Shown here piece by piece: positions 27,536-49,927 of a stretch of 64,000 bases of DNA (its first letter is position 1; each line of letters opens with the position of its first letter). The stretch is taken from contig NZ_AOII01000032.1 in the NCBI RefSeq assembly GCF_000337615.1, forward strand, positions 26,867 through 90,866. The letters run 5' to 3'. The notes below the pieces were generated by a model that was not told the DNA's origin, searched no databases, and saw nothing but the letters and a program-made list of their open reading frames with translations. A program made the position numbers and the translations under genes. Origin of the DNA: Natrinema pallidum DSM 3751 (GTDB taxonomy: Archaea; Halobacteriota; Halobacteria; Halobacteriales; Natrialbaceae).

Positions 27536-27580
27536 ATGATCGGCTCTACTACTGGCTTCCCGTCCCGCCGCTTCGTATGA
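27536..27580 (+). CDS. 14-codon leader ORF overlapping the aminotransferase start
   Basis: An ATG at the expected leaderless transcription start opens MIGSTTGFPSRRFV. Its TGA overlaps the ATG of the aminotransferase (ATGA). Two other glycan genes have the same arrangement with exactly 14 codons. Translation is inferred. Confidence 0.4.
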   Translation: MIGSTTGFPSRRFV

Positions 27581-28698
27581 TCGATGCCACGCCGTCGGTG
27601 TTCGACGCGTCATTTTCGGGGACGGGGCCGGGGATCGATGCGTTCATCGACCGGTACGCACCCGACAGCACGCACACGTACTACGGCTCGGGGAAAGTTG
27701 CACTCCGGGACGGCCTCGCCGGACTCGTCGACCCCGGCGACAACGTCATTGTTCCCGCCTTCCTCTCGCCCGCCGTCGTCGAGCCGTTCCACGAACTCGG
27801 CCTCGAGCCGCGGTACTACGCCATCGAAGAGTCGCTCGCACCGGATTTCGCCGATCTCGAGGCACGGATCGACGCCGACACCGCCGCCGTCGTATCGGTC
27901 AACTACTTCGGCTTCCCCCAGCCCGGCCTCGAACGACTCGCCGCGCTGACCGACGAGTACGACTGCTATCACGTCGATGATAACGCGCACTCACCGCTCA
28001 GTGTCCGCGACGGGACCCTGCTTGGCACGCACGGTGATCTCGGCATTACGACGCTGCGGAAACTCCTCCCCGTTCCCGACGGGGCCGTCCTCTACTGTAC
28101 GGACGAGACGGTCACAGCGCAGTTCGCGCCCTCGTCGCTTGCCGGCCGGTCGAATCGCATCGCGACCGCTGATTGCCGGTTCGTGGCCGCCTCGATCGCC
28201 GAACGCGTCCTTCGGACCAGCCCGTCGCTGTACCGCTCGGTCGAGGCGATCCTCGCTGACGGGGTGGTGGACTCGTCGTCCGTAGACCCCGACAGCCGAT
28301 ACGAGGCCGCCAAAGTCCCGATGTCGAAGCTTTCCGCGATCGTCGCCGACGCCGTCGACCCGGATGCGATCCGGGCTGCTCGCCGGGAGAACTTCCGTGC
28401 GTGGCGGCGAGTCGTCGCCGACCGTGAGGACGTGAGACCGCTCTACGACCGACTGCCGGAGGGTATCAGCCCGTACGAGTTCCCCGTCCGAACGGCCGAT
28501 CGCGACTCGTTTCTCGCGGCGCTCGAGGAACGTGGTGTCGTCGGTGCCCACTCCTGGCCGATCCTCCGCGAGACCGTCCGTGAGGCGGACACGTACGAGA
28601 CGTCGATCCGACTCGCGGACGATCTCGTCGCGCTTCCCGTCCATCAGGGGATCGAGCCGTCGGCCATCGAGACGGTCGGCGATCGGCTTCGACCGTGA
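27577..28698 (+). CDS. DegT/DnrJ/EryC1-like aminotransferase
   Basis: A 373-residue PLP-dependent enzyme of the type that aminates nucleotide-linked keto sugars. VALRDGLAGLVDPGDNVIVPAF binds the cofactor phosphate, here in shortened form, VVSVNYFGFPQPG and CYHVDDNAHSPLS hold the ring-binding Asp, and GDLGITTLRKLLPVPDG carries the likely Schiff-base Lys. The usual GEGG glycine loop after this Lys is replaced by PVPDGAVL, so the active site is divergent. It starts inside a leader ORF (ATGA overlap) and is divergent from the phosphodiesterase gene. The substrate is unknown. Confidence 0.75.
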   Translation: MIDATPSVFDASFSGTGPGIDAFIDRYAPDSTHTYYGSGKVALRDGLAGLVDPGDNVIVPAFLSPAVVEPFHELGLEPRYYAIEESLAPDFADLEARIDADTAAVVSVNYFGFPQPGLERLAALTDEYDCYHVDDNAHSPLSVRDGTLLGTHGDLGITTLRKLLPVPDGAVLYCTDETVTAQFAPSSLAGRSNRIATADCRFVAASIAERVLRTSPSLYRSVEAILADGVVDSSSVDPDSRYEAAKVPMSKLSAIVADAVDPDAIRAARRENFRAWRRVVADREDVRPLYDRLPEGISPYEFPVRTADRDSFLAALEERGVVGAHSWPILRETVREADTYETSIRLADDLVALPVHQGIEPSAIETVGDRLRP

Positions 28699-28720
28699 CG
28701 GATCGTCGCTACTGAAACGG

Positions 28721-28765
28721 TCGAGACACTGACCACAAACCGTCATGCGGTCGGGCGTGTCTCGA
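28721..28765 (+). terminator. Inverted repeat between convergent genes
   Basis: TCGAGACAC and GTGTCTCGA form a 9-base-pair stem around a 27-base spacer that contains a smaller GACC/GGTC pair. It lies between the stops of the aminotransferase and HerA-like genes and may end both transcripts. Confidence 0.4.
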
Positions 28766-28823
28766 ATTTCGGTGGCGACTATAGCGCCGCCCGCCCGTTT
28801 CGATCCGATCGGAGCGCACTCCG

Positions 28824-30563
28824 TTACTCGCCCGCCGCCGCGGCCGGCAGTTCCGCCCGCACGTCGCCGGCCAGCGCGTACGTCCGTTCGCCGGCCCGCT
28901 CGAGCAACCCGGCCGTCCGGAGCTCCGAGACGAGACTCTGGACTGCGACCCGCGATCGATCGACTCGAGCGGCGACGGCCACCGTCTCCAGCGGGCCGTC
29001 TCGCGCGAACACGCCCAGGATCTCCGCGGCCGTCTCGCGCGAACACTGCGACCCCTCGCACGCGCGGGTGACGCGCTCGTTGATCCACCGGGTCTCGAGC
29101 AGGTCCGGGAGGTCGCGTTCCTCGTCCATGACGACGGACCCCGGCTCGTCCACGGTGTCCGTCTCCGACGCCGCGTCCGCGTCGGCGGGCGTGTATCCGA
29201 ACTCGATGTCGTCACCGCCGGCCTGGACGATCGCCGACCCGTCCGCGTCGGCACCGCTGCCGTCGGCCCCGACCGTCGCATCGTCAGCATCCCGCTCGGG
29301 ACGCTCCTCGCGCTCGAGATCGCGGACGACCGCGCGCAACTGCTTGTTTTCGTTCCGGAGTCGATCGACTTCCGCCGCTCGATCCGCAAGCTGCTCCTCG
29401 AGGTGCTCGATACGGTCGTCGCGCGCGGCGAGGTCCGCCTCGAGTTCGTCTCGCTCGGCCTCGAGCTCGGCGATCTCCTCGTGGAGTCGGCGTACGTCCT
29501 CGCTGCCGCCGGGAAGTTGCGACTGGACCGTGTCCGTGTTCTGCAAGGCGTCGGCCATCTGTCTGGCCGCACTCGAGACATCACGCGCCGAGGCGAGATC
29601 GTCCTCCAACGTTTCGATCCGTTGTTGCTTTTTCTCGAGTTCGGCCTCGAGTTCGGTGATGCGGTCCTGTTCGCGCTCCGTGCGCTCGGAGATGTCCTGG
29701 AGGTCGCCGACCAGCGCGTCGGAGACGGACTTGAGTTCGGGGCGCTCGAAGTCGTCCAGGCCGGGCGTTGCTCCGGCGTCGAAGGTCCGCTTCCGGCGAA
29801 ACTGGATTTTCCGGACGTCGACTTCGGTCCAGTCGGTTTGGACGAACGCCTGTCCGTCGTTGAGATCCGAGACGAGTTCCGAGTACTCGGTGTCGATGAT
29901 CCGGCCGACGACCTTCGTGTCGTTGTCCCATGTCAGCCGATGCCATACTAGCCAGTTTGCCTGTGTGATGAAGTCCTTCTTCACGTCGGCGGGTCGCTGG
30001 CTGATTCCCACGATTCCCAGGCCGTGTTTCCGGCCGCGCTTGCTGATCTTGATCAGCAGGTTGCCGGTCTCGCCGACGCCGCCCCCCTCCGGGATGTACT
30101 CGTGGACCTCCTCGACGACCAGCAGGAACGGCTTCTTCAGCTTTTTTTCCTTGACGAACAGCTGCCGGGCGATCTTCCGCAGGAGTTCGTCCGCGACGTC
30201 CTCGTCGAGATACCCCGACACGTCGAGGATGACCGGCACGTTCTCCTCGAGCGCCAGCGTCGCCATCTGCTCCGCGTGTTCCGGCCCGATCTGAATGTCA
30301 CACTCCTCGTCGGCCCCCGCGTGGAGCATCTCGTACTCCTCTTTGAGCCCGTAGTACTCCCCGTCCGTGTCGACGATGAGCAGGGGATACCCGGCCTCGA
30401 GCAGTTCTTCGGCGATCACCGACGCGGTGTTTGACTTCCCCGAGCCGGACTTGCCGGTGACGAACCCGCGACCGGTGAGGAGTTCGACGACGGGCAGCTG
30501 CAGATCGGCTCCGTCGGCCGTCTCGCCGACGTGGATCAGGCGCTGCCTGGAGCCGTCGCTCAC
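28824..30563 (-). CDS. HerA-like ATPase with coiled coil and winged helix
   Basis: A 579-residue protein. Residues 1-290 are a HerA/FtsK-type ATPase with Walker A GKSGSGKS (37-44), Walker B FLLVVEEVHEY and a GISQRPADV sensor. About residues 300-430 form a long coiled coil rich in Glu, Leu and Arg. An acidic linker follows, and the last 70 residues look like a winged helix (ETAAEILGVFARDG, then VAARVDRSRVAVQSLVSELR). HerA proteins pump DNA with nucleases in repair and end processing. No nurA gene is adjacent; the XPB-type helicase upstream suggests a repair role. Confidence 0.85.
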   Translation of the reverse strand: MSDGSRQRLIHVGETADGADLQLPVVELLTGRGFVTGKSGSGKSNTASVIAEELLEAGYPLLIVDTDGEYYGLKEEYEMLHAGADEECDIQIGPEHAEQMATLALEENVPVILDVSGYLDEDVADELLRKIARQLFVKEKKLKKPFLLVVEEVHEYIPEGGGVGETGNLLIKISKRGRKHGLGIVGISQRPADVKKDFITQANWLVWHRLTWDNDTKVVGRIIDTEYSELVSDLNDGQAFVQTDWTEVDVRKIQFRRKRTFDAGATPGLDDFERPELKSVSDALVGDLQDISERTEREQDRITELEAELEKKQQRIETLEDDLASARDVSSAARQMADALQNTDTVQSQLPGGSEDVRRLHEEIAELEAERDELEADLAARDDRIEHLEEQLADRAAEVDRLRNENKQLRAVVRDLEREERPERDADDATVGADGSGADADGSAIVQAGGDDIEFGYTPADADAASETDTVDEPGSVVMDEERDLPDLLETRWINERVTRACEGSQCSRETAAEILGVFARDGPLETVAVAARVDRSRVAVQSLVSELRTAGLLERAGERTYALAGDVRAELPAAAAGE

Positions 30564-30718
30564 CGATCGACCACCCCGGTCGTGCGCGGTTCGTTCATAC
30601 TATCTGTACAGTCCGAACACGCAACCTTCAATATTGGCCTCGCGTCCGCCGTCGCCGTCGGCCGGCAACCGCCGCCTGCGCCGCGGTGGGTGCGGCCGAC
30701 GGGCGTTCTCGAGTCCGA

Positions 30719-32629
30719 TCAATCCGCGTCGCGCTCGACCGTCCGCTCGCGGACCGTCATCCCCTTGCGACCCAGATGCTGGAGTTGCTTCCGGGCGAAG
30801 TCCTCCTCGCGGGTCCCGCGGGTCGCGAGGACGTAGACGAGCGCGCCGCCGGCGGGCCGCATCGTCCGGCCGGCACGTTGGGTCCCCTGCCGGCGCGAGC
30901 CGCCCAGCCCCGAGGCGACGATCGCCAGATCGGCCGTCGGCAGGTCGATCCCCTCGTCGCCGACCCGCGAGATGAGCAACAGATCGCGCTCGTTCCGTCG
31001 GAACTCCTCGAGCAGCCGCCGACGCTCGTGGTGTGGCGTCTCGCCGCTGAGGAAGGGTACGTCGAGCGCCTCGGAGAGCTCCCCGCCTTGCTCCAAGTAG
31101 TCGACGAAGACGATGGCCTTCGCGTCGGGGTGGGCCGACAGCAGGTAGCGGACCTCGTCGATCTTGCCCCGATTGCGGGCGGCGATCCGATACTTCTCAC
31201 GGCCGTCGGCCGAGCCGTAGGCGTTCGCCTGCTCGTCGTCGCCCCACGGCACGTACCGGATCTCGAGTTCGGGTTCGGCGACGTGGCCCGCGTCGAACAG
31301 CGCCTCCCAGTCGGTGCCGATCGGCGGTCCGACGAGGGTGAAAATCTCCGTCTGGCGGTCGTCCTCCCGGATCGGGCTGGCCGACAGCCCGAGCCGGTGT
31401 TTGGACTGGAGGTGCGTGCTCCGCCGGTAGACGTCCGAGGGGACGTGCTGGCACTCGTCGAAGATCACCAGCCCCCACTCGCGGTCGTCGAACAGCGAGC
31501 GGTGCCGATCCATCCCCGCGATCTGGTAGGTAGCGATCGTCACCGGCCGCACCTCCTTGCGGCCGCCGTGGTACTGGCCGATCTGATGGGGCTCGAGCGA
31601 GGTGTACTCGACGATCGTCTCGGCCCACTGCTGGGCGAGGTCGCGGCTCGGCACGAGGACGAGGGTCTCGCCCTCGACGTGGGCCATCGCGCCCATCGCA
31701 GCTACCGTCTTCCCGCTGCCTGGCGGACCGACGAAGACACCCTCGCCGGCCTCTGTAAAGCGATCCACCCACGTCCGCTGGTAGTCCCGCAGCGACACCT
31801 GCAGGTCGGTCGCCAGTTCCTCGCCGGACTCGAGTTTGCGGTGGTCCTGAACTGGATAGCCGGCTTCATAGAGGATGCGCTTGATCGCGGCCTCCGCCCC
31901 TTCCCGGACCCAGTCTTCCGTCTCGGAGATCGGCGCGTGGACGTGTTCCTCGTCGAGCTTCTGGCGGGCGACGTTGCCCATGATCTCGGGGCTCTGGGCC
32001 TCGAGCACGGTGTAGCCGTCCTCGTGGGTTGTCAGGCGGAACTGGTGGGCACGGTCCCACTGGCTCTCGACCCAGTCCTCGAGTTGGTCGGCCCGCTGGC
32101 CGAGCGCCTGTCGCATCGTCCGCGCGAGTTCGTCGAAGGAGTCGTGGGGCGTCCCCCAGATATCCTCGGGCCGGACGACGTAGCGATAGCCCTGCTCGCC
32201 GTTCCCGTCCGCGAGGTGGGCGAACTGCGAGAGTTGCGCGCGGGTGAACTGCTCGGGGCGGTCGACGATGATCTCCCGTCGTTTCGGAAAGACGACGACC
32301 CGCTCGCGGTCGGTCAAATCCTCGAGTTCGCTCGGATACCAGACCACGGGGTCCGTCGAGACGGCGTGGCGCTCGATGTCGCCCGTGTCGGCGAGGGCCT
32401 CGAGTCGTGCGGTCGCTTCCTCGTGGGGAATCTCGAGCGCACGGGAGACGGCCGCGGCGGTAAGTACGGGTCGTCCCTCCCGTTGACTGGCGTCGTGGAA
32501 GTCGGCGATCGTGAACTCGGCGTCGCCCGGCTCGTTCTCGTCGCCGGCGTCGATCGGCTCCGTGTCACCCGACGCTGCGGGGTCGCTTCGCTGCTCGTCG
32601 GCGGGCGTCGAAGAACGGTCGTCGGTCAC
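30719..32629 (-). CDS. XPB/Rad25-type superfamily 2 DNA helicase
   Basis: A 636-residue helicase. The first 45 residues are acidic and disordered. A DNA-damage-recognition-like N-terminal domain follows, then the helicase core: GPPGSGKT near residue 300, DECQH (the DEAH-type motif II) near 386, SASP, and QRAGRTMRP near 583. XPB acts in DNA opening for repair and transcription in eukaryotes, and its archaeal homologs are thought to act in repair, some with the Bax1 nuclease. Bax1 is not seen here. The neighbouring HerA-like gene lies on the same strand, 155 bases downstream. Confidence 0.9.
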   Translation of the reverse strand: MTDDRSSTPADEQRSDPAASGDTEPIDAGDENEPGDAEFTIADFHDASQREGRPVLTAAAVSRALEIPHEEATARLEALADTGDIERHAVSTDPVVWYPSELEDLTDRERVVVFPKRREIIVDRPEQFTRAQLSQFAHLADGNGEQGYRYVVRPEDIWGTPHDSFDELARTMRQALGQRADQLEDWVESQWDRAHQFRLTTHEDGYTVLEAQSPEIMGNVARQKLDEEHVHAPISETEDWVREGAEAAIKRILYEAGYPVQDHRKLESGEELATDLQVSLRDYQRTWVDRFTEAGEGVFVGPPGSGKTVAAMGAMAHVEGETLVLVPSRDLAQQWAETIVEYTSLEPHQIGQYHGGRKEVRPVTIATYQIAGMDRHRSLFDDREWGLVIFDECQHVPSDVYRRSTHLQSKHRLGLSASPIREDDRQTEIFTLVGPPIGTDWEALFDAGHVAEPELEIRYVPWGDDEQANAYGSADGREKYRIAARNRGKIDEVRYLLSAHPDAKAIVFVDYLEQGGELSEALDVPFLSGETPHHERRRLLEEFRRNERDLLLISRVGDEGIDLPTADLAIVASGLGGSRRQGTQRAGRTMRPAGGALVYVLATRGTREEDFARKQLQHLGRKGMTVRERTVERDAD

Positions 32630-32762
32630 TGGCGAGTCGTAACGTCGGTGCGGATAAACCGATTTCGCTCGCCGACGGTGGGTCGTCGAGCGTCCCTATC
32701 CGTGGTGATCGGACGCCCGAACCAGGATAGCTATATTTGGCTGGACGGCGTTTCGTTCCGGT

Positions 32763-32951
32763 ATGTACCGCGCGATCCTTCCCGAAGGACAGATCGAATG
32801 CGATCGGTACGACCACGCCGAGAACGGCGTCGAACTGTACGACGAGGACGGCACCTTCATCGCCTTCATCCCGTACGCGAACCTCCACGCGCTGGCCGAC
32901 GAACGGCTCTACACCGAGAGCACCAGCGAGGGCGAGCGGTCGATCATGTAG
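32763..32951 (+). CDS. Small conserved-looking haloarchaeal protein
   Basis: A 62-residue acidic protein (MYRAILPEGQIECDRYDHAE at its start) with a beta-rich pattern, GVELYDEDGTFIAFIPYANL, and no cysteine cluster. A TATA-like GCTATATTTGG lies about 25-35 bases upstream, which supports a leaderless gene. It is divergent from the helicase and overlaps the end of the tfb gene by 8 bases tail to tail. I do not recognise a function. Confidence 0.7.
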   Translation: MYRAILPEGQIECDRYDHAENGVELYDEDGTFIAFIPYANLHALADERLYTESTSEGERSIM

Positions 32952-33903
32952 CCGGCTGCTGATCGATCGCCTCGAGTTGCTCCCGATATCGGTTGCGGAC
33001 GGTGACGACCGTCGTTTGGGCGGTTTCGGCGACCGCTCGCTGGGGGATGGTCTCGTCACAGAGGAGCCCGGCGGCGTAGATGGCCGCGGCGGCGAACCCT
33101 GTCGGTGATTTGCCCGAGTGGAGCCCCTGCTCGGTCGTCCGGTCGATGATCTCGATTGCTTTGGTCTCGACGTCGGTATCGACGTCGAGTTCCGAACAAA
33201 ACCGCGGGACGAACTGTCTGGGGTTCGTCGGTTCGAGGTTGATGTCGAGTTCGTCCGCGATGTACCGGTAGGTTCGACCGATCTCGCGTTGCTCGACGCG
33301 TGCGACCGAGGTGACCTCCTCGAGACTGCGCGGAATGTCCTCCTTTCGACACGCGGTGTAGAGCGCGCTGGTCGCGACGCCTTCGATCGATCGGCCCCGG
33401 ATGAGGTCCTGCTCGAGTGCCTGTCGGTAGATGACGCTCGCGGTCTCCTTGACGGGCTTGGGAACCCCGAGCGCGCTCACCATGCGGTCGATTTCCGAGA
33501 GGGCGTACTTGAGGTTCCGTTCGCCCGCGTTCTTCGTTCGGATGCGTTCCTGCCAGACCCGGAGTCGATGGAGTTGGCCGTGTTTGTCCGCCGACATCGA
33601 GTGGCCGTTGGCGTCCTTGTTGCGCCAGTCGATGGTCGTCGTGAGCCCGCGGTCGTGCATCGACTGGGTCAGCGGCGCGCCGACGCGCGACAGTTCGTCG
33701 TGTTCCTGTGCGTTGAACGCGCGCCACTCCGGCCCGTAGTCGATCGGGTCTTCGGTGAGGACGAGTCCACACTCCGCACAGACTTGCTCACCGCGATCCG
33801 GGTCGTGGATGATCGTGTCGGTCTCGCAGTCGGGACACAGACCGGTCTCGACCTCCGTCGACTCTGATTCGGTGCTGCGTTGATCGATGATAGACCGCGT
33901 CAT
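32944..33903 (-). CDS. tfb: Transcription initiation factor TFB
   Basis: A 319-residue homolog of TFIIB that bridges TBP on the TATA box and RNA polymerase. The zinc ribbon uses Cys23, Cys26, Cys42 and Cys45; the B-reader follows (GPEWRAFN). Two cyclin repeats fill about residues 120-210 and 215-305, and the last helix-turn-helix (PQRAVAETAQTTVVTVRNRY) is where TFB reads the BRE. Haloarchaea have several TFBs with different promoter preferences. This copy lies within the region where the ATAACAAAG promoters occur, which makes it a candidate for their recognition, but that is only inference. Confidence 0.93.
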   Translation of the reverse strand: MTRSIIDQRSTESESTEVETGLCPDCETDTIIHDPDRGEQVCAECGLVLTEDPIDYGPEWRAFNAQEHDELSRVGAPLTQSMHDRGLTTTIDWRNKDANGHSMSADKHGQLHRLRVWQERIRTKNAGERNLKYALSEIDRMVSALGVPKPVKETASVIYRQALEQDLIRGRSIEGVATSALYTACRKEDIPRSLEEVTSVARVEQREIGRTYRYIADELDINLEPTNPRQFVPRFCSELDVDTDVETKAIEIIDRTTEQGLHSGKSPTGFAAAAIYAAGLLCDETIPQRAVAETAQTTVVTVRNRYREQLEAIDQQPAT

Positions 33904-34745
33904 CAGTAGCCGGAGGAAACCCTGCCGGCACTGTAATGGGTTCACATGGTTTCGCGGGAAACACCGACTTACGATGCCGCCGGCTGTCAGTCTGCGTGAG
34001 GGTTCGCCCGAGCGAACGCGGCGAATTACATACCCGGTTACGGCGGGGTGTCGTTCGCGCGACGGCGGGCGATGACCGCCACCGCTCGAAGAGAGAACGG
34101 CAGATGATCGATACGGCCGCCAACTGCCTCGAGCAAACAGAGCGGCAGCCGTATCGAGACCGTGTCCCATCGGTCGTGTCCGGGTGAAACGACCATGGAT
34201 CGGTCGCTTCGACCCACCGTGGGCAATGCACACATAATACATGAATCGTGGCGATCGTTGTTCTGCCCTGTCGACATAAATCGCCCATTCATGACGTAAA
34301 TCCGTCGTTCGGTTGTGAACTGTCGCTCGCCTTTAGGTTGGTTGGTTCGAACCTTCGGACCCAGTGCTGTGTTAGTACGTAGTCCCCCGGACCGTGCTCG
34401 TCGGTGGCCGTTCGCCGAGCCGACCGCTCGTACGCCGCCGATATACGGGTGCAATCGCCAGATACGACGCGGCGACGCGGGCGTTCGAAATCGCCCGCCA
34501 TGGCGGCGGCCGAGCGTCGCGGGAGTGCCGTCGAGAAGTCGTTCCGTACCTCCTTTGCAGACGGTGCGAAACGTGGCCGTGCTTAAGAGTATCTCTGTTG
34601 GTGTACAACCTGGTGTGTCAATCGTGATTTCGACTCGCCGTTCGAACGTACAGCGGTCGCCGTCGGGACGACGTTCCAGTGACGGGAAGCAGGTCCGACC
34701 GGTGCCGAACTCGAATGGTGTCTCTACAACCGGAGGGTCGTCGTA
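33904..34745. other. Long gap upstream of tfb
   Basis: About 840 bases between divergent tfb and the winged-helix/membrane gene. It holds their promoters, with GTGCTTAAGAGTATC at 34578-34592 a candidate for the latter, and one possible small ORF (34038-34196). CCGGAGGG at about -15 before the start at 34746 may act as a Shine-Dalgarno site. Confidence 0.4.
34038..34196 (-). CDS. Possible small ribbon-helix-helix-like protein
   Basis: A 52-residue frame. DTVSIRLPLCLLEAV resembles the strand and first helix of a ribbon-helix-helix repressor, and a second helix could be FSLRAVAVIARRRAN. A TATA-like GTATTATG lies 37-44 bases upstream of the ATG. The composition is more basic than typical here, so this may be chance or a remnant. 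Confidence 0.25.
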   Translation of the reverse strand: MVVSPGHDRWDTVSIRLPLCLLEAVGGRIDHLPFSLRAVAVIARRRANDTPP

Positions 34746-35342
34746 ATGTCCTCGATCGATACGTCGTTGCCCGACGAAATCGCCTCGGTTGCCGAGGCCG
34801 ACGAGGACGAACGCCTCTCGAAGGACGTCATTTTCGAGCTTTTAAAGAATCGCCGTCGCCGGGAAGTCCTCGCGTACTTGCTCGAAGCCGACGAAACAGT
34901 TACGCTCGGTGAACTCGCCGAACAGATCGCCGCCTGGGAGAACGATACCGAGGTCAACGCGCTCAGTTCCGATCAGCGGAAACGTGTCTACGTCGCCCTC
35001 TACCAGACCCACCTGCCGAAGATGGACGACGCCGGCATCGTCGAATACGACCAGGACCGGGGCCTGATCTCGCTCGCTGACAACGCGGACCTGCTGATGA
35101 TGTACCTCGATACGGACAGCCACCGACAGGACCGGTGGGATCGATGGTATGCCGCTCTCAGCGTCGTCGGTGCCGCCCTTCTCGGCGCGGCGGCGCTCGG
35201 CGCACCGCTGCTATCGACACTCCCGATGCTCGGCCTCGCTGGTGCCGTCGTCGTCACCTTCTTTTGCCTCTCGGTCGCTCACGTCGTTCGGAACCGCTCG
35301 CAAGAACGCACCGTCGACGGCAAACTGTCCCGGATCGAGTGA
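34746..35342 (+). CDS. Winged-helix/membrane protein (DUF7344-like), left copy
   Basis: A 198-residue protein. Residues 25-105 form a winged helix with NRRRREVLAYLLEADETVTL and VYVALYQTHLPKMDDAGIV, a pattern typical of the DUF7344 family. Two hydrophobic segments near residues 140-160 and 165-185 anchor it to the membrane. A clear paralog lies at 62593, at the other end of the glycan region: both share the stretch around AAWEND and YQTHLP. Such proteins are likely membrane-bound transcription regulators, but no target is known. Confidence 0.82.
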   Translation: MSSIDTSLPDEIASVAEADEDERLSKDVIFELLKNRRRREVLAYLLEADETVTLGELAEQIAAWENDTEVNALSSDQRKRVYVALYQTHLPKMDDAGIVEYDQDRGLISLADNADLLMMYLDTDSHRQDRWDRWYAALSVVGAALLGAAALGAPLLSTLPMLGLAGAVVVTFFCLSVAHVVRNRSQERTVDGKLSRIE

Positions 35343-35899
35343 CCCGACGTTCGTGACGGCGCTCCCGTGTCCCGAATCCGCGACGACTCTCCTGTCAGTC
35401 CGTCCGCTCGAGTGATGGGCGTCTCGGTCGGTGAGTCGCTGCGCTCCTGCCGCCACTCGCTCGAGTGCCGCGACCACGGTCGGCGCGGCCACCGCTCGAC
35501 GCCATCGGCGTGTCGCCGGCTGTCGATTCGGCCACCTTCGTCTCGGATCGCTGAGAAGGTTTTTATCACACGATTACGTATGTTCGACCGGCTCCCGACG
35601 ACCGTCATCCAATACCGGAGCAGTCGCGTGCCAGCAGCTGTTCCCGGCGCGGGAGCCGTCTTTCAACTCGTGCCACCTCGGCCGCCGAAACTCGTCCTCG
35701 GAGTGACCCGACCTCGAGTCGCGACTCGATGAGGGACCGCTTTCGCGCTTCCGGCCCCGGGCCGAGGGAGCGGTCGATCTCAGCGGGTCGACCCTCGTTG
35801 TCGGTAGCAGGCCCATACCCGGTCGCCGTCTCGAGGGCGAGTTAGGGTTCGTGAAGTAATCGGACTAAAACTAATGACCGGCGTCCTGTCCGTCCGCTC
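35343..35899. other. Gap before the first oxidoreductase gene
   Basis: About 560 bases. A T-rich GGTTTTTATCAC at 35558-35569 looks like a TATA element, yet no good frame starts at leaderless distance. GGACTAAAACTAATG at 35862-35876 lies 25-38 bases before the ATG at 35900 and is the likely promoter of that gene. Confidence 0.4.
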
Positions 35900-38880: not shown

Positions 38881-38883
38881 CGC

Positions 38884-40953: not shown

Positions 40954-40963
40954 TCGGCATCGG

Positions 40964-40984
40964 TCACTGACGCAGCGTCAGTGA
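40964..40984 (+). terminator. Perfect palindrome after the beta-helix gene
   Basis: TCACTGACGC, A, GCGTCAGTGA: a perfect 10-base inverted repeat, 10 bases after the stop. It may be a terminator hairpin. Confidence 0.45.
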
Positions 40985-42518: not shown

Positions 42519-43077
42519 ACATGTCCGTAACTCCGGCTTACACACATAAACTTTTTCTTGGAGCTATGGCTTAAATTTACAGAATATATTTCTAACACTG
42601 GGTATAGGGTCACAATCTATCGATATTTATCCACGAACTTATGAACGAATTGATGACAGTTTCCGTGGCCGTAATCGACTCTTTGTCGAAGAAACGAGCG
42701 CGTGTCGAGCGGAGAGGCGCTCTCGACCTCGAACCCGACGGGGAAGACGAAAGCGGCGTTCGGTATCGCCGACACCGTTTCGGACGGACAGCATCGTCTT
42801 TCTCGAGTCGTAAGCAGTTCTTACCGGCCGCTTCGACCGGTCTCGGGGGCTCGGACGAGATGCGTCAGTCCCGACGGAGCGGAGACCACCAGCGAGGAGT
42901 GCCGACAGCGGTCTCGAGTCGACGGCGCGTCCCGTCACGGTGAGGACTCGAACGTGCTCGCGTGCGCGAGGAGGAATCGGCACATCTCATTCATCGTGGG
43001 GCCGGGAGCTGGCGGCGGCCGAAACTCGCCCGCCCCGATCAACAGTGGCAGCAGCGGCCTGCGGAACGGGAGCGTCG
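42519..43077. other. AT-rich promoter and gap
   Basis: The first 140 bases are AT-rich (CATAAACTTTTTCTTGG, TTTACAGAATATATTTC) and hold the promoter of the short beta-helix gene. The remaining 400 bases have no supported feature. Confidence 0.4.
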
Positions 43078-44871
43078 CTACGGCCTGCTACTGATAGCGT
43101 ACATCTCGAACTCGTCGTTCGAGACGACCTTGTTCGCGGCCGGGTCGGTGTCGAGCCCCTCGAGTGCGGCTTCGCGGTAGTTGAGTTCCTGATAGACGTC
43201 GATCTCTTTCGTTCTGTCCCACTCCGTGAAGACGAAGTAGTACTCGTCGGTCGGATAGGCCCCGCTGTAGTTGCCCGCCGAGAACACGGTCGCGTTGACA
43301 GTTCCCGTGGCCGCCGACGCGCCACCAACGGTCTCGCCGCCGCCCGGGATACCGTTGATCGCGTGATCGTACCGGTAGGGGTCGTACCCCATACCCGCGT
43401 AGGGAACGCCCTCGGCCCCGTGATCCAGACCGTCCTCGTAGCCGCTCATCATTTCGGGAGTCACGTGCTGGCCCGGGTTGTAGATCAGCGGCGACGCGAA
43501 CACCGTGAGCAACCCGAGCACCAGACAGCAGCCGAGCACCAGCGCGGTGACCGCGTTTGCTCCCGGTCTCGTGAGCACGCTCGAGAGCCCGCCGGTAACC
43601 TGTGCCAGCGCGATTCCGGCAAGGATCGTCAGGAGGACGTAGATGAAGCCGACCTGTCGGAACGCCATCGTGGGCGTTCCGACGAAGTACACCCCGAACA
43701 GGCCACCCAAGGGAATGAGTCCGAAGCTGACGTAGTTGACGAAGGATCTGTTCTCGGCGTCGAGGCTCGTCCGACCGAGCCAGACGGCCAGGATGAATAG
43801 GCCGACGAGAAGTCCGATGATCGCGGCATCGAGGAACATCTTCACGAAGAGCTCGGCGAGGCTCCCGCCGATGTCGGTCAGCGACGATCCTCGCTGGTCG
43901 ACCTCGGCCCCGGCACCGACGTCCTGCGAGAGCAGCCCGTACACTAGCCCGGACGCGGCGCTTCTAAACCGTTCGTTCCCGAGCGCCCAGAGCCCGAACA
44001 TTCCACCGAGGACGATCGTGTGTGTGTACGTCGTCGGGTGCTCGAGCATCGGGTGCTCGTCGAACCGTCGGCGAGCGAGGAACTGAACGCCGCTGATCGC
44101 GGCGACGAGGACGATGATATTGAACATCTGCTGGGGGTGGACCAACAGGAGCGTGAGGCCGGTCAGATAGACGAGGACGCTGAACGGCGATAGCCCGAGC
44201 GGGAGTCGTTCGACCATCGACCGACGCCGGAGGTAGGCGACGAGCGCGAAGACGACGGGCGGAACCAGAAAGAGTGCGTTCGAGTTGGTATGAACGCCCA
44301 TGAACGTCGCGATGTTGTTAACTGGGAGGACCATCCAGGAGACGATCGCGGACAGTCCGACCGCCAGTCCGCTGCCCGCAATATCGCGGACGGCGAGCGG
44401 AACGAAGACGACGAACGGAACGAAGAGCACGACCATCGCGATCAGGAGCCCGCGTTCGATCGGGACGCCGCCGACGACGTGAAACACCGTTGCAATGGCG
44501 TGTAACCCCGGATAGAACAGTTCGTGGGGCGCGGTTCCCCCGGACACGATGTCTCGGGTCCAGCCCAGATGCGTCATCGCGTCGCCCATCCCGGCGAAGC
44601 GATAGTTCCGGATCACCGGGAGACTCACGATGGCGATCACCGTCGTCCCGCCCAGCACGATCCCGTACCCCTGTCGGCGACCCCGACAGGACAGGGTCGT
44701 CCCGACTGCGATTGCGAGCGCGAACGCGAACACGACCCAGGTGATCGTCGGCGAGCCCACGTAAACCGAGGATTCGTAGGCCGTCGCCGGGTTCGCTCTC
44801 GCGATCAGGGTGCCGACCGCGACTGCGAGAAACCCGACCGCGACCGTCACGTTGAGCGTCGATCGTCTCAT
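43078..44871 (-). CDS. Multi-spanning membrane protein, polymerase- or glycosyltransferase-like
   Basis: A 597-residue protein with about 12 membrane segments up to residue 480 and a soluble C-terminal domain of about 115 residues (GYDPYRYDHAINGIPGGG and YYFVFTEWDRTKEID). The first outer loop has GDAMTHLGWTRDIVSGG, then HELFYPGLHAIATVFH, the acidic and histidine loop seen in lipid-linked-sugar glycosyltransferases and polysaccharide polymerases. It is the best polymerase candidate in the region. The start is set by an overlapping leader ORF (ATGA). A precise family cannot be named. Confidence 0.7.
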   Translation of the reverse strand: MRRSTLNVTVAVGFLAVAVGTLIARANPATAYESSVYVGSPTITWVVFAFALAIAVGTTLSCRGRRQGYGIVLGGTTVIAIVSLPVIRNYRFAGMGDAMTHLGWTRDIVSGGTAPHELFYPGLHAIATVFHVVGGVPIERGLLIAMVVLFVPFVVFVPLAVRDIAGSGLAVGLSAIVSWMVLPVNNIATFMGVHTNSNALFLVPPVVFALVAYLRRRSMVERLPLGLSPFSVLVYLTGLTLLLVHPQQMFNIIVLVAAISGVQFLARRRFDEHPMLEHPTTYTHTIVLGGMFGLWALGNERFRSAASGLVYGLLSQDVGAGAEVDQRGSSLTDIGGSLAELFVKMFLDAAIIGLLVGLFILAVWLGRTSLDAENRSFVNYVSFGLIPLGGLFGVYFVGTPTMAFRQVGFIYVLLTILAGIALAQVTGGLSSVLTRPGANAVTALVLGCCLVLGLLTVFASPLIYNPGQHVTPEMMSGYEDGLDHGAEGVPYAGMGYDPYRYDHAINGIPGGGETVGGASAATGTVNATVFSAGNYSGAYPTDEYYFVFTEWDRTKEIDVYQELNYREAALEGLDTDPAANKVVSNDEFEMYAISSRP

Positions 44872-44912
44872 TTCATCCCACCGCGCTCGTCCGGGCCAGT
44901 CTCGGTACGCAT
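44868..44912 (-). CDS. 14-codon leader ORF overlapping the membrane-protein start
   Basis: The ATG at 44912 is 30 bases after the promoter element. It opens MRTETGPDERGGMK, and its TGA overlaps the ATG of the membrane-protein gene (ATGA). Translation is inferred from the repeated arrangement. Confidence 0.4.
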   Translation of the reverse strand: MRTETGPDERGGMK

Positions 44913-44941
44913 CTCTCGAGCCAGTCGTCGACGCTGTCGGG

Positions 44942-44950
44942 GTTTGTTAT
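44942..44950 (-). promoter_or_regulatory. Glycan-region promoter element ATAACAAAC
   Basis: Minus-strand GGATAACAAACCCC, one base off the consensus. It lies 30 bases before the leader ORF and 71 before the membrane-protein gene. The rest of the 359-base divergent gap (44872-45230) has nothing else that I can support. Confidence 0.6.
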
Positions 44951-45230
44951 CCGGCACCTACCCTCGAAACCATATCGGGAGGCGAGCTCCACGCCGTACG
45001 GCCGGCGTCCCGCCCGGACGTTTGCCCTGCAGACCCCTCTCGAGCGCGTGCGCCGCGTTCGTTCGGCTGCAAACGGGGCGAGCGGGGACCGCCGCAGCCG
45101 AAGTATTCCGTCCCTATCGAGTCGGGACAGTCAGCTATGGATGCATTTCTCGAGCGCTGATCGATCAACGGTTCCGGTCGTTTTTGTAGTCGGTCGTGGT
45201 CCGCTCACTCGAGCGCGAGATGTCTTCACT

Positions 45231-46538
45231 ATGTCATCGATCCTTATCGACCGACTGACGGCCGACAGTGGAACCCTCGAGTGCTCGATTCGAGCCACGT
45301 CAGACCTCGAGCGGTTCTTCACCGACGAATCGTTCCGAACCGACTACGACGTCCCGATCGCGGCCGTTCCGGACGGCGTGCTCGCGATCCCGGTCCTCGC
45401 GCAGGTCTGTCCCGTCGCGTGGGCCAACGGGGCCGATATCTACGTCGACGAGGTCGACGCGACGTTCGCGCGCGCCCTCGCGGACGTGAAGACGACCCTG
45501 TGTGAGATGCACGACTTCCTCGACGGTGGGACCCTCTACGCGCGGCGGACCATCGACCCGGAACCGGAGCCGAGCGACGGGAGCGGACTGCTCTTTACCG
45601 GCGGCGTCGACTCGACGTGTTCGTACGTCCGCCACCGCGAGGAGTCGCCGACGTTGATCAGCATTCGGGGCTGGACGATTACCCCCAGCCCCGACGACGA
45701 CGAGAAGTGGGACGCGCTGCGAACGCGCGTTTCGCGGTTCGCCGACGATCACGACTGTGAGACCGCGTTCGTCGAGTCGAACATGCTTTCGTTTCTCGAC
45801 CATGCGATGCTGTTGGCCCATTACAAACGGCACGTCGACGGCGGCTGGTACAGTTCCGTCGGCCACGGGTTGGGGCTGCTCGGTCTCTGTGCCCCGATGG
45901 CCTACGCGCGTGGGCTGACGGATCTCTACGTCGCCGCGACTCACTGGGACGGCATCGACCTCGAATGGGGCTCGCGCCCCGATATCGACGAGCGCGTCCG
46001 GTGGACCGGGACACGGTGTCACCACGACGGCTACGAACTCACCCGACAGGAGCGCCTCGATGCCATCGCCGACTACGTCCGCAGCGAGGAGCCGACGCTG
46101 CGACTCCAGACCTGTAACGACCGCATGGACGGAAACTGCGGCGAGTGTGAAAAGTGTTACCGCACCGCTGTCGGACTTCGCCTTTCGGGCCTCGAGCCGG
46201 CCGATCACGGCTATCCGTTCGCCGAGGGGGACTACCGTCGGCTCCGGCGGTCGCTCGAGCGTGGCGAGTGGGTGCTCGGCCAGGACGAGCGTCACATGTG
46301 GGCGGACATCCGCGAGCGTGCCCGCGACACGGACCCGGCCACGCCGGCCGAACGGGCCTTCTTCGAGTGGCTCGCTGGCGTCGATCTGGACGACCTGATT
46401 TCGGCCTCCGAACCGCCGCTCACCCATCGGCTCCTCCGTGCTGGCGCGAGAAACGCCCCCGCACCCGTCTACAACACCGTGTACCCGGCCTGGGTGGCGG
46501 CGAAAACCGGCCTGCAACGCGTCCGTTCGGATCGATAG
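45231..46538 (+). CDS. PP-loop ATPase related to QueC
   Basis: A 435-residue protein. The PP-loop LLFTGGVDSTCSYV lies near residues 121-134 and would bind ATP and release pyrophosphate. Near residue 300 NCGECEKCYRT repeats the CxxCxxC zinc site found at the end of QueC (7-cyano-7-deazaguanine synthase). The N-terminal 110 residues and C-terminal tail are not those of QueC, and no other queuosine or archaeosine genes are near. In a glycan region it may form an amide, nitrile or similar group on a sugar, but this is inference. The ATG at 45231 matches the protein start best. Confidence 0.65.
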   Translation: MSSILIDRLTADSGTLECSIRATSDLERFFTDESFRTDYDVPIAAVPDGVLAIPVLAQVCPVAWANGADIYVDEVDATFARALADVKTTLCEMHDFLDGGTLYARRTIDPEPEPSDGSGLLFTGGVDSTCSYVRHREESPTLISIRGWTITPSPDDDEKWDALRTRVSRFADDHDCETAFVESNMLSFLDHAMLLAHYKRHVDGGWYSSVGHGLGLLGLCAPMAYARGLTDLYVAATHWDGIDLEWGSRPDIDERVRWTGTRCHHDGYELTRQERLDAIADYVRSEEPTLRLQTCNDRMDGNCGECEKCYRTAVGLRLSGLEPADHGYPFAEGDYRRLRRSLERGEWVLGQDERHMWADIRERARDTDPATPAERAFFEWLAGVDLDDLISASEPPLTHRLLRAGARNAPAPVYNTVYPAWVAAKTGLQRVRSDR

Positions 46539-46654
46539 CGTCGGCTCCGCCGCCTCGATCGGGCACCCGCTCGAGCCGCGTCGTTCCGCCTGCGTCCGGT
46601 CGCACTCCCACCACGCTTTTGCTTCGCTACGGGAAACTGTCCCACAGTATCGCG

Positions 46655-48049
46655 ATGACCGTCGAACTCGGCGATATGGCTTCCGTCCTGCTCGAGCACG
46701 CCCAAGACAAACTCGCCATCGTCGATACGGACGGCACCTACGTCTACCTCAACGCGGCGAGCGACCCGATCCTCGGCTACGAGCCGGCGGACCTCGTCGG
46801 CGAGCAGTCCGCGGCGTACATCCACCCCGACGACCGGCGGGCCGTCGCGGATCGGCTCGAGCAGGTCAGTGCGACGGGCGCGTCGGCGACGGTCCGCTAT
46901 CGCCACGCGACCGCGGACGGCGAGTGGGTGTGGCTGGAGAGTCGCGTGACGAACCTGCCGGATGCGGCGCTCGACGGCTACGTCGTCAGTTCGCGGGATA
47001 TCTCCGATCAGGTGACCGCGGAGCAGGAACGCCGCGACGCCGAGAGCAGACTGCGAACGATCGCCGGCACCGTCGGCGACGTGCTGTGGATGTTCAACGG
47101 CGACTGGTCGGAACTGCTGTTCGTCAACCCGGCCTACGAGGACATCTTCGGTCAGCCGGTCGCCGACCTCAAGGCCGACCCCCGGCAGTTCCTCGAGGTC
47201 GTTCATCCCGACGACATCCCGTGCGTCCGAGAGGCGATGGATCGCGCCTCGGCCGGCGAATCCGTCGACGTGGAGTATCGCGTCAACCCGGATGCGGAGT
47301 ACAGCCACTGGGTCTGGGTCCGCTCCGAACCGATCATCGAGGACGGCGAGGTCGTCCGCATCGTCGGCTTTTCTCGAGACATCACCGACCGGCGGCGACG
47401 GGAACGCCAGCTCGCGGTCATGGACAACCTGCTCCGGCACAACCTGCGCAACGACATGGCCGTCATCCTCGGCAACGCCGAGTGTATCGCCCGGGAGGGC
47501 GATACGGCGTCTCGTGGGCGGGCGGAGATCATCCGCACCCAGGGCCGGAATCTCCTCGAGAGCGCGGACAAACAACGCGACATCATCGAACTACTCACCG
47601 ACCGGGCCGTGCCGGAGCCGATCGATCTCGTCGCGGTCGTCACTGACGCGGTCGAGACGACCCGGGAGCGGTATCCGTCCGCGACGATCGAAACGACGCT
47701 GCCGGCGTCGGCGACCGCGACCACCCTCCACGAGATCGAGTTGGCCGTGGCGGAACTCCTCGAGAACGCCGCCCGGCACGAACCCGACGGTCAGCCGGAG
47801 CTGTCCGTTACCGTCCGCTCCACCCCGGAAACGGTCGATATCGTCGTTCGAGACAACTGCCCGCCGATTCCGGAGGTCGAGTTTCGCGTCCTGACTGGCG
47901 ACTGGAAGATGAACGACGTCTATCACACGTCCGGACTGGGGCTGTGGCTCGTCTACTGGACCGTCGATCTCTCCGGGGGCCGTATCGCCTTCGACCGAGC
48001 CGAGAACGGCAACACGATCACCGTGACGGTGCCGCGCAGTCGGTCCTGA
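46655..48049 (+). CDS. PAS-PAS sensor histidine kinase
   Basis: A 464-residue soluble histidine kinase. Two PAS domains (about 5-120 and 130-250) are followed by an H-box RHNLRNDM with the phosphorylated His near residue 262, typical of haloarchaeal kinases, and an HATPase domain ending GLGLWLVYWTVDLSGG. It has no membrane segment or receiver. The partner regulator is not adjacent. Its stop is immediately followed by the stop of the convergent phosphodiesterase gene with no gap. Confidence 0.88.
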   Translation: MTVELGDMASVLLEHAQDKLAIVDTDGTYVYLNAASDPILGYEPADLVGEQSAAYIHPDDRRAVADRLEQVSATGASATVRYRHATADGEWVWLESRVTNLPDAALDGYVVSSRDISDQVTAEQERRDAESRLRTIAGTVGDVLWMFNGDWSELLFVNPAYEDIFGQPVADLKADPRQFLEVVHPDDIPCVREAMDRASAGESVDVEYRVNPDAEYSHWVWVRSEPIIEDGEVVRIVGFSRDITDRRRRERQLAVMDNLLRHNLRNDMAVILGNAECIAREGDTASRGRAEIIRTQGRNLLESADKQRDIIELLTDRAVPEPIDLVAVVTDAVETTRERYPSATIETTLPASATATTLHEIELAVAELLENAARHEPDGQPELSVTVRSTPETVDIVVRDNCPPIPEVEFRVLTGDWKMNDVYHTSGLGLWLVYWTVDLSGGRIAFDRAENGNTITVTVPRSRS

Positions 48050-49642
48050 TCACTCCATATAGCCAAGTCCCTTCAGCCGGTCCGCCACGTCGTCGAAGTC
48101 CTCGTCGACCGCCTCGTCGCTCTCGATCCGACCCACCGTCGTCCGCTCGACCTTGGTCGCGGCCGGCGCGCTCTCGTCGTCGAAGGCGTCGAAGAGCACC
48201 CGCCCGTCCGCGTTGTCCGGTACTGGCTCGCCGATCCCGTGTAGCAGCGTCGGCGCGATGTCGACCACTCGAGCCCCGCGCAGGGTCGCGCCGGACGCGA
48301 TCGACGGGCCGCGACAGAGGACGATCCCGTCGTTGCGATGGCTCGCGTCGTAGGTCCCCGTCTCGCCACGGACCTCGGTTGCCATCCCGCTGCGGGATTC
48401 GTAAACACCGCGGCCACAGACCACCAGATCCGGCGATCCCTCGTCCGTCGGGAACAGATCGTCCCCGTCGTGGACGACCAGCAGCGGATCGCCGTCGTCG
48501 TCGGTGGCCGACTCGAACGCGGCCCTGAGATCGGCCTTTATCTCCGGCACTTCGCTCGGCGAGACGATGCCGCTGTCGAAACGCTCCGTGTCGTTGATAT
48601 AGCAGTTGCCCGTGTCGTGGACGAAGGCGACGGTACGGTCGTAGTCGACGTCGTAGAGGGCGTGATCGCCGGGAATCTGCTCGGCGACGGAGTCGACCAG
48701 CCGCCGGGGCAGCGACTGGACGAGGGTCTCCTCGGTGATGCCGACCCGGTTGAGCGCCCCGGTGATGGCGTCGCGAGAGATGCCGAGGCTCGCGAGCGCT
48801 CCGCGGGTGCCCTCGTCCTCGCGCCGGAACAGGTACCCCTCCTGCTCCAGGATGCGGTTGACGTAGACGAGTCCCTCGATCGGGCCGAAACCGTGGTCGG
48901 AGACGACGTAGAGGTCCGCGTCGTGGTCGTCCGTGTACGCCATCACATCGCCGAGTATCTCGTCGAGTTGCGCGTAGTGGGCGCGCAGTCGGTCCATGTC
49001 CCAGATGAGGTGCTGGAACCGGTCGGGCGCGGTGTAGACGAAGAAGAACAGCTGCCAGTCGTCGCCGGCGCGGTCCATCTGGATCTCCATGAGGTCGCGG
49101 CGTTTCGCGAGGACATCGTCGACGGCGTCCTCGAAGTCGTCCGGCCGGTCGGCGTACTCGGGATAGTCGAGGCTGATCTCGTAGTTCGGGATCCGGGAGT
49201 CGATCTCGGCTTGCAGCTCCGGCGGATGGGTAAACTCCCGGTCCGTCGAGGGCGTCATCATCCCCGTGACCATGGTGCCGTCGATCTCGCGGGCCGGATA
49301 CGTCATCGGGACGTTTCCGACGTGGGCCGGCCCGAGTTGATCCCAGAGGGCCGGCTGTGCGAGATCGCGGCTCGTATACATCTCGTGGCTGTATTCGGAC
49401 GAGAGGTTCTGGAAGCCGTAAATTCCGTGTTTGTCCGGCCACACGCCCGTGGCGATCGACGGCCACGCGAGCGGCGTCGTCGGCGGACGAGTGCTGTCGA
49501 GCGTTCCGGATGCACCCGCTTCGCGCATCCGAGCGAAGTTCGGGAGGATACCCTCGTCGCTCCATTGCTCGATGAGTCTCCACGGCACGCCGTCGAGTCC
49601 GAGCACGAACGCTCGCTCGGAGGAAGTCGTAGATCCGCTCAT
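48050..49642 (-). CDS. Alkaline-phosphatase-superfamily phosphodiesterase, second copy
   Basis: A 530-residue PF01663-like enzyme. It starts ERAFVLGLDGVPWRLIEQW with the first metal Asp, has AWPSIATGVWPDKHGIYGF with the catalytic Thr, and VVSDHGFGPIEG with Asp-His ligands. It ends RLKGLGYME, like the RLSDLGYL end of the copy at 25706. Both lie among glycan genes and share the ATAACAAAG promoter element. The substrate is unknown; transfer or removal of phosphate-linked groups on surface glycans is one idea. Confidence 0.85.
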   Translation of the reverse strand: MSGSTTSSERAFVLGLDGVPWRLIEQWSDEGILPNFARMREAGASGTLDSTRPPTTPLAWPSIATGVWPDKHGIYGFQNLSSEYSHEMYTSRDLAQPALWDQLGPAHVGNVPMTYPAREIDGTMVTGMMTPSTDREFTHPPELQAEIDSRIPNYEISLDYPEYADRPDDFEDAVDDVLAKRRDLMEIQMDRAGDDWQLFFFVYTAPDRFQHLIWDMDRLRAHYAQLDEILGDVMAYTDDHDADLYVVSDHGFGPIEGLVYVNRILEQEGYLFRREDEGTRGALASLGISRDAITGALNRVGITEETLVQSLPRRLVDSVAEQIPGDHALYDVDYDRTVAFVHDTGNCYINDTERFDSGIVSPSEVPEIKADLRAAFESATDDDGDPLLVVHDGDDLFPTDEGSPDLVVCGRGVYESRSGMATEVRGETGTYDASHRNDGIVLCRGPSIASGATLRGARVVDIAPTLLHGIGEPVPDNADGRVLFDAFDDESAPAATKVERTTVGRIESDEAVDEDFDDVADRLKGLGYME

Positions 49643-49698
49643 GCTTGTTGTATGAGACGTCGAAGACGCCTGTTGTCCGGGCGGTTGCCGAGTGAGCG

Positions 49699-49707
49699 CT
49701 TTGTTAT
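49699..49707 (-). promoter_or_regulatory. Glycan-region promoter element ATAACAAAG
   Basis: Minus-strand CTATAACAAAGCGC, 57 bases before the phosphodiesterase start. This implies a leader of about 30 bases. No leader ORF is seen here, unlike at three other sites. Confidence 0.6.
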
Positions 49708-49849
49708 AGAGCGGTTTCAGCCAACGGCCGCCTCGAGCCGTCGCTGTTCGGTGGCGTTAACTCGTCGGTTCGTGTGCGAGGCGGTCTCGTTGACCCTCGC
49801 TCGCCTCGCACGGCTCGCGGTCGTCAGCCGCCGGCCAAACAGGACATCC

Positions 49850-49858
49850 ATAACAAAG
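49850..49858 (+). promoter_or_regulatory. Glycan-region promoter element ATAACAAAG
   Basis: CCATAACAAAGCCA, 25 bases before the ATG of the mini-ORF at 49883. It is divergent from the element at 49699. Confidence 0.65.
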
Positions 49859-49882
49859 CCACCCGCCCACGACGGTCCGGAT

Positions 49883-49927
49883 ATGAGACGCATGCAATCG
49901 TGGTGGGATCCGTGGGTAGCGTCGTAA
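49883..49927 (+). CDS. 14-codon, tryptophan-rich leader ORF
   Basis: The first ATG at leaderless distance from the promoter opens MRRMQSWWDPWVAS, with three Trp in 14 residues. Its TAA shares one base with the ATG of the deacetylase gene (TAATG). The same length and arrangement occur at 27536 and 44912. Confidence 0.4.
   Translation: MRRMQSWWDPWVAS

Follow-up and report, generated by a model that had tools for sequence, protein, structure and literature searches.

Four genes of a haloarchaeal glycan cluster (sites 1, 2, 4, and 5) are probably supplied with ribosomes by short upstream ORFs, whereby initiation at a 5'-terminal mini-ORF would be followed by termination-reinitiation at the glycan gene. 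The arrangement is retained in ~27 genera while the sequence and the length of the encoded peptides drift, which suggests, judging from sequence comparison, that the mini-ORFs deliver ribosomes rather than make peptides. The DNA analysed is a 64,000-nt stretch (the window; Table 1) from Natrinema (Natrialbaceae), its nearest kin being N. altunense and N. gari; a TFB gene is encoded within the glycan cluster. A sequence-only reading of the window had proposed leaderless translation of three leader ORFs of exactly 14 codons (sites 1 to 3) with reinitiation at the gene behind them. The comparison argues strongly for such a mechanism at sites 1 and 2 and likewise at sites 4 and 5, which are additional to those three, while site 3 turned out to be a different arrangement. 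Site 5 lies just beyond the window.

Table 1. Positions of promoter elements, upstream ORFs, motifs, and genes in the window.
Feature	Positions	Strand	Remarks
Site 1 promoter element ATCACTAA, variant of ATAACAAA	27501..27508	+	35 nt ahead of mini-ORF ATG; ATCACTAAg in most orthologues
Site 1 mini-ORF, 14 codons + TGA	27536..27580	+	stop overlaps ATG 27577
Site 1 main gene, DegT/DnrJ/EryC1-like aminotransferase, 373 aa	27577..28698	+	PF01041, E=5e-17
Site 2 promoter element ATAACAAA	44943..44950	-	38 nt ahead of mini-ORF ATG
Site 2 mini-ORF, 14 codons + TGA	44868..44912	-	stop overlaps ATG 44871
Site 2 GGTG Shine-Dalgarno-like motif within mini-ORF	44879..44882	-	GGTGA in most Natrinema
Site 2 main gene, 597-aa multi-pass membrane protein	43078..44871	-	coupled gene
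Site 3 promoter element ATAACAAA	49850..49857	+	33 nt ahead of upstream ATG
Site 3 upstream ORF, 14 codons + TAA	49883..49927	+	overlaps main gene start by ~16 nt
Site 3 GGTGG Shine-Dalgarno-like motif	49902..49906	+	precedes GTG 49912
Site 3 main gene, polysaccharide deacetylase-like	49912..50844	+	start corrected to GTG 49912
Site 4 promoter element ATAACAAA	62300..62307	-	ahead of upstream ORF
Site 4 upstream ORF, 42 codons + TGA	62119..62247	-	stop overlaps ATG 62122; ATG 60 nt past element
Site 4 main gene, 196-aa hexapeptide acyltransferase	61532..62122	-	PF00132, E=5e-29
ATAACAAA element, directly leaderless gene behind	27360..27367	-	ATG 27334, 33 nt
ATAACAAA element, directly leaderless gene behind	50920..50927	+	ATG 50954, 34 nt
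ATAACAAA element, directly leaderless glycosyltransferase gene behind	55085..55092	-	ATG 55053, 39 nt

That the mini-ORFs begin at an ATG following a promoter, as had been claimed, was borne out by the excess of the element ATAACAAA in the window (7 copies vs 0.08 expected) and by matching distances to the ATG. A 5'-proximal ATG is kept 33-40 nt past a ATAACAAA or ATCACTAA element, with spacings of 33-38 nt for mini-ORFs and of 33, 34, and 39 nt for the directly leaderless genes. Sites 1, 2, and 5 share the spacing of directly leaderless genes, and site 4, where the distance is 60 nt, may therefore have a ~25 nt leader or another start. Searching the whole genome for ATAACAAAS showed no enrichment (18 copies, equal to the reversed-control count); 8 of the 18 copies fall within one ~37 kb cluster, and relatives show similar clusters. 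It is conceivable, if rather doubtful, that a core promoter shared by and specific to the cluster (ATAACAAA, for which the TFB encoded there might be the reader) and peptide-independent 5' mini-ORFs form a common translational control layer for the four genes across the family.

At site 1, the 14-codon ORF at 27536 (+) was present as claimed, encoding MIGSTTGFPSRRFV and ending in a TGA (27578-27580) over ATG 27577, and the same holds for the ORF at 44912 (-) at site 2, which encodes MRTETGPDERGGMK and whose TGA lies over ATG 44871 (-). An exact ATGA overlap was found in 47 of the 51 site 1 loci that have an upstream ATG; in the other 32 of 83 loci the element or the ATG is absent or the site has changed. 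At site 2, the exact overlap was found in 101 of 104 family loci, rising to 103 once two start calls were corrected, so that the counter-case raised earlier, orthologues without an overlapping ORF, did not hold there. Leaders ranged from 11 to 30 codons at site 2, with 12 different lengths and the same frame in nearly all, and from 13 to 28 codons at site 1. Because relatives span these ranges, the three equal lengths carry no meaning (the sequence-only reading had itself allowed for coincidence), and a length of exactly 14 codons was ruled out as a conserved trait. Length and overlap had been named together as the conserved property: the overlap stands at sites 1 and 2, while the length does not. 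Conserved at these two sites are the placement of the ATG relative to the promoter element, the frame in which the mini-ORF is read, and the overlap of stop and start as NTGA.

Conservation of the frame and of the stop/start overlap is far beyond chance. None of 95 unique site 2 leaders had a stop in the mini-ORF frame, compared with 22 and 53 leaders in the other two frames; in shuffles the number averaged 34.7 and never fell below 21. Frame-preserving changes of length numbered at least 9, at least 11, at least 13, and at least 7; the probabilities calculated from distinct lengths assume that unconstrained changes preserve the frame in one of three cases, and exceptions occur at sites 1 and 4. 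The upstream ORF at site 4 had no in-frame stops in 30 loci, and the script found an exact NTGA in 23-24 of the 30, with lengths of 18-112 codons; two more loci had a 1-nt overlap (~26 of 30 tightly linked). At sites 1 and 4, the way in which the script chose the ATG and the main start is somewhat lenient. Site 5 was coupled in 30 of 30 loci, with lengths of 16-42 codons. A TGA sharing two bases with the next RTG is thus present at sites 1, 2, 4, and 5 and in most relatives, and absent at site 3, and the spacings are those of haloarchaeal termination-reinitiation (4-nt or 1-nt overlaps, or a very short gap).

Scans for conserved coupled mini-ORFs covered stretches of the genome. When the island was scanned together with 200 kb of flank, one of the 113 flanking genes proved to be a comparable, conserved case. 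A 280 kb scan in four species recovered sites 1, 2, and 5 along with one flank case, a protein resembling ribonucleotide reductase. One further call was probably in the wrong frame. Site 4 was not recovered in the 280 kb scan, and the gene-wide scan of the window and the islands missed it owing to the ORF length limit that had been set.

The linkage is kept while the peptide sequence is not, in agreement with the earlier observation that the peptides are unrelated in sequence. The mini-ORFs might instead encode functional peptides, as amino-acid-sensing leaders or small proteins incidentally coupled to the gene, and at site 2 a beginning of MRI(D/E) in most genera does leave room for conservation of the peptide or of the nucleotides in the start region. 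Against this, genera share no peptide sequence at sites 1, 4, and 5, where lengths run from 13 to >100 codons, and a common run of one codon type was not seen. Selection on the site 2 peptide was looked for in three ways (how variation is spread over codon positions, synonymous counts between nearest neighbours, and positional GC), none of which supported it: variation was about even across codon positions, the synonymous fraction was not above that of the other frames, and the mini-ORF was devoid of gene-like codon bias (57% GC3 vs 77% in the main gene). With no conserved peptide, variable lengths, and no synonymous bias at site 2, the features of an amino-acid-sensing leader or attenuator were not found, and a functional peptide is highly improbable. 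The site 4 peptides are rich in arginine. The 597-aa site 2 protein itself had no Pfam or NCBIfam match above the cut-off (DUF6541 at E=0.23 only), and its predicted structure (mean pLDDT 51.8) was left out of the interpretation.

Shine-Dalgarno (SD)-like motifs bear on whether the mini-ORFs are translated in the first place. Of 101 site 2 leaders, 69 carry an SD-like 4-mer ahead of the main start, as opposed to 19 and 28 in control intervals, and such motifs are likewise enriched at sites 4 and 5, whereas site 1 showed no enrichment before the main start (14 of 68, the controls giving 16 and 12). For reinitiation, such a motif within the upstream ORF is helpful but inessential. The motifs at sites 2, 4, and 5 would also suit a leader that remains untranslated, as a UTR or a DNA regulatory element, with ribosomes initiating straight at the main start in an SD-type or another leadered mode, and site 3 with its GGTG motif clearly fits a leadered start. 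This explanation nevertheless leaves unaccounted for why the frame is kept over many length changes, why stops are absent from one frame only, and why the NTGA overlap is constant; moreover, a study of Haloferax volcanii found that initiation on 5'-UTRs does not use SD motifs in this species (PMC3986360). An untranslated leader is consequently very unlikely.

The arrangement could also be a relic, in which a frameshift split the N-terminus off an ancestral leaderless gene and reinitiation at ATGA only rescues expression, with no regulatory benefit. In three loci from three other families (L056, L058, and L059), the site 2 gene apparently starts at a promoter-spaced ATG and is N-terminally extended, as this history would have it. 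However, the same architecture occurs at four genes of one cluster and is kept family-wide even though changing a single base could bring back direct initiation, and at site 5 it was also seen by eye in two other families (L423 and L428). A mere relic is therefore unlikely, and as an account of the origin it may be compatible with a present function.

In the preferred reading, ribosome loading by the mini-ORF, a promoter of the ATAACAAA or ATCACTAA type would start the transcript on the mini-ORF ATG itself or a few nt ahead of it, and a ribosome would initiate there in the leaderless mode usual for haloarchaea, where 72% of coding transcripts in H. volcanii are leaderless (PMC4983044). A short peptide of no conserved sequence, free of detectable selection at site 2, would be made, termination would take place at the TGA that has two bases in common with the main start, and the ribosome would reinitiate on the main gene by analogy with known haloarchaeal termination-reinitiation, presumably assisted at sites 2, 4, and 5 by the enriched SD-like motif within the mini-ORF. 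In H. volcanii, translation is coupled across ATGA overlaps (PMC6728339), and coupling requires an overlap or a very short spacing (PMC10666635). Loading of ribosomes in this manner would mean that the mini-ORF sets the amount of cell-surface glycan protein. Points that weigh against this reading are the codon usage of the site 2 mini-ORF, which is not gene-like, the 32 site 1 loci that depart from the pattern, and the 60-nt distance at site 4.

"Coupled" leaderless small ORFs are already known from mycobacteria, while an archaeal, family-wide set at glycan genes appears to be new. The mycobacterial RTGA-coupled class (Shell et al., 2015, PMC4633059) likewise has a small ORF (in leaderless position there, and probably here) with its TGA over the next RTG, and a linkage that is more conserved than the peptide sequence; it is, however, bacterial and was shown by start-site mapping and ribosome profiling, whereas the haloarchaeal set is deduced by comparison, comprises four genes of one glycan cluster, and carries an internal SD-like motif at three of them. 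Overlapping gene pairs of H. volcanii (Huber et al., 2019, 2023; PMC6728339, PMC10666635) share the -4 nt NTGA overlap, the SD-like motif in the upstream ORF, and the archaeal class, but are full genes, while the upstream ORF described here is a mini-ORF close to the promoter whose product is not conserved. In H. volcanii, genes can also be preceded by short ORFs of 15-31 aa (PMC4983044), although these lie in 150-250 nt 5'-UTRs, and neither a 5'-terminal position nor an overlap with the main start was described for them. Delivery of ribosomes by a short coupled ORF is listed among the proposed routes of translation initiation in a 2025 review (PMC12548453). The present loci look like natural, deeply conserved archaeal cases, in which the peptide is free to change but not the frame or the junction of stop and start, and the ribosome-delivery idea is therefore directly testable with simple mutants.

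Site 3, although related, has a form of its own, consisting of a 5' ATG and a separately placed GTG start that is preceded by an SD-like motif. The proposed 14-codon ORF from ATG 49883 does exist (peptide MRRMQSWWDPWVAS, TAA at 49925-49927), but its TAATG junction with the gene does not hold, since ATG 49927 is an internal codon. As a start this ATG was rejected: most relatives have ATT, ATC, ATA, or CTC there. Conservation begins at GTG 49912 (MGSVVxSLDAELGW), where some relatives carry an ATG, and with this start the ORF and the gene overlap by ~16 nt. The frame of the overlapping ORF is not preserved in other genera. Haloarchaeal gene starts and small ORFs are prone to mis-annotation, for which site 3 is an example. 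E. coli mRNAs with a 5'-terminal AUG and an SD-led gene (Beck et al., 2016, PMC4965119) resemble site 3 in that a 5' ATG is followed by an SD-like motif and the main start lies apart from that ATG, but belong to another domain of life; site 3 differs further in its GTG start in Natrinema and in a 5' ATG that is conserved across genera, at a distance of 28, 29, or 40 nt from the main start.

The three 14-codon ORFs that had been noted before glycan genes (sites 1, 2 and 3) were all found in the sequence, and at sites 1 and 2 the end of the ORF does overlap the main gene as ATGA. The stop/start junction proposed for site 3 did not hold: relatives do not conserve the supposed main start, ATG 49927, and have ATT, ATC, ATA or CTC there. 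Conservation of this main gene instead opens at GTG 49912 (MGSVVxSLDAELGW), a position that is ATG in some relatives and has GGTGG upstream, and site 3 is therefore without a junction of the described type. Two further upstream ORFs (sites 4 and 5) were identified. Glycan-type genes are present in the window from ~24.7 kb on, with products that include aminotransferases, glycosyltransferases, an epimerase, an acyltransferase, a UDP-sugar dehydrogenase and a polysaccharide deacetylase-like protein.

Coordinates of the upstream ORFs and of the TFB gene (window positions unless a contig is given)
Feature	Position	Strand	Remarks
Window	G000:C32:26867-90866		haloarchaeal genome
Site 1 ORF	27536	+	14 codons
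Site 2 ORF	44912	-	14 codons
Site 3 ORF	49883	+	14 codons
Site 4 upstream ORF	62247	-	42 codons; overlaps ATG 62122 of hexapeptide acyltransferase
Site 5 mini-ORF	G000:C32:91198	-	just beyond the window; before DUF1616 protein
TFB (TFIIB-like) gene	32944-34242	-	PF00382, E=4.9e-44; inside the glycan cluster

At site 2, whose protein has its closest named relatives in Natrinema altunense (96%) and N. gari (95%), the mini-ORF stop exactly overlaps the main start in 101 of the 104 family loci possessing the promoter element. When the three exceptions were read, two proved to be start-call errors that overlap after all, and in the third the stop lies a few nt upstream of the ATG. Mini-ORF length varies from 11 to 30 codons, most commonly 15 (43 loci), 14 (30) and 17 (14), and none of the 95 unique leaders has an in-frame stop (22 and 53 in the remaining two frames; shuffled mean 34.7). 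Two Natrinema loci (L039 and L132, from genomes G020 and G091) carry a 45-nt in-frame insertion, giving a mini-ORF of 29 codons with the ATGA overlap retained. In other families, homologues (L056, L058, L059) bear an N-terminal extension and apparently begin directly with an ATG close to that promoter element; the site 2 mini-ORF may have arisen by the splitting-off of such an N-terminus.

At site 1, an ATG lies 31-42 nt downstream of a CACTA-type element in 51 of 83 loci, and 47 of these 51 overlap exactly (13-28 codons), including every one of the 23 Natrinema loci that have the ATG. In the remaining 32 either the element or the ATG is missing, and at least 4 of these have an in-frame GTG at the same position. 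By script criteria, site 4 has an exact NTGA overlap in 23-24 among 30 relatives, with two more sharing one base and the rest overlapping by a few to 14 nt, and site 5 keeps the exact overlap in 30/30 (16-42 codons). No leader has an in-frame stop at either site (other frames: 27 and 14 at site 4, 15 and 12 at site 5). Judged by eye, the site 5 gene also has an ATGA-coupled mini-ORF in two other families (L423, L428). At site 4, the stretch from ATAACAAAG to the upstream ATG (62247-62307, minus strand; CCTCGTTACCGGCTGT...GGGTATCGA) is highly conserved across genera, which suggests a regulatory element.

The promoter element ATAACAAA occurs seven times in the window (27360-62307) against 0.08 expected. 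For three directly leaderless genes the distance from the element to the ATG is 33, 34 and 39 nt; for the mini-ORFs of sites 3 and 2 it is 33 and 38 nt. Site 1 carries a variant, ATCACTAA, 35 nt upstream of its mini-ORF ATG. Such spacing would fit a position of the mini-ORF ATGs at, or close to, the 5' end of the mRNA. Genome-wide, ATAACAAAS was not enriched, its 18 copies equalling the count for the reversed control; eight of the 18 fall within a single ~37 kb cluster, and such clustering is likewise present in relatives. The cluster TFB, which has matches in all five islands (glycan gene cluster regions) compared, could be the factor that reads these unusual promoters.

SD-like motifs, defined as a 4-mer of GGAGGTGATC immediately upstream of the main start, were found in 69/101 loci at site 2 (control intervals 19 and 28), 28/30 at site 4 (5 and 8), 28/30 at site 5 (3 and 5) and 14/68 at site 1 (16 and 12). 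The formal test for peptide selection covered site 2, where differences were spread over the codon positions (1452/1962/1436 in leaders of 14 codons, 5672/5736/5357 in those of 15) and synonymous changes were not enriched in the mini-ORF frame. GC3 is lower in the mini-ORF (57%) than in the main gene (77%). From genus to genus, the peptides of sites 1, 4 and 5 are clearly unrelated. None of this points to peptide selection, though it is no proof that the peptide lacks a role.

In H. volcanii, leaderless transcripts are the majority of coding transcripts (PMC4983044), initiation was not SD-driven at the 5'-UTR tested (PMC3986360), and ATGA overlaps couple translation (PMC6728339, PMC10666635). 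Together with the sequence evidence, this literature favours a scheme in which the ribosome would initiate at the 5'-terminal mini-ORF and, after terminating there, reinitiate at the glycan gene. A mycobacterial class has the same design and is experimentally supported (PMC4633059), so the kind is already known; no report of coupled mini-ORFs at haloarchaeal glycan genes was found in a search limited to open-access literature.

Background frequency was assessed by scanning 280 kb in four species (181 genes with orthologues in at least two others). Among flanking genes, 1/113 had a comparable conserved coupled upstream ORF, and in the island part sites 1, 2 and 5 were found again. Both scans for such ORFs missed site 4, so the frequencies they give are minimum values, and the seeming concentration in the glycan cluster is a suggestion, not an established result. 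Outside the cluster, conserved ATGA coupling was seen in four species at the gene of a ribonucleotide reductase-like protein of 1047 aa (G015:C3 ~3523135, minus strand; position 83135 in the joined stretch), where the upstream ORF has at most 33 codons. Lastly, a 91-aa ORF (MHDLTGFQRDLLYVIAGADRPSGQ...) resembling a PadR-type regulator follows a ATAACAAAT element in the islands of G015, G014, G012 and G005, and is near-identical in all four.
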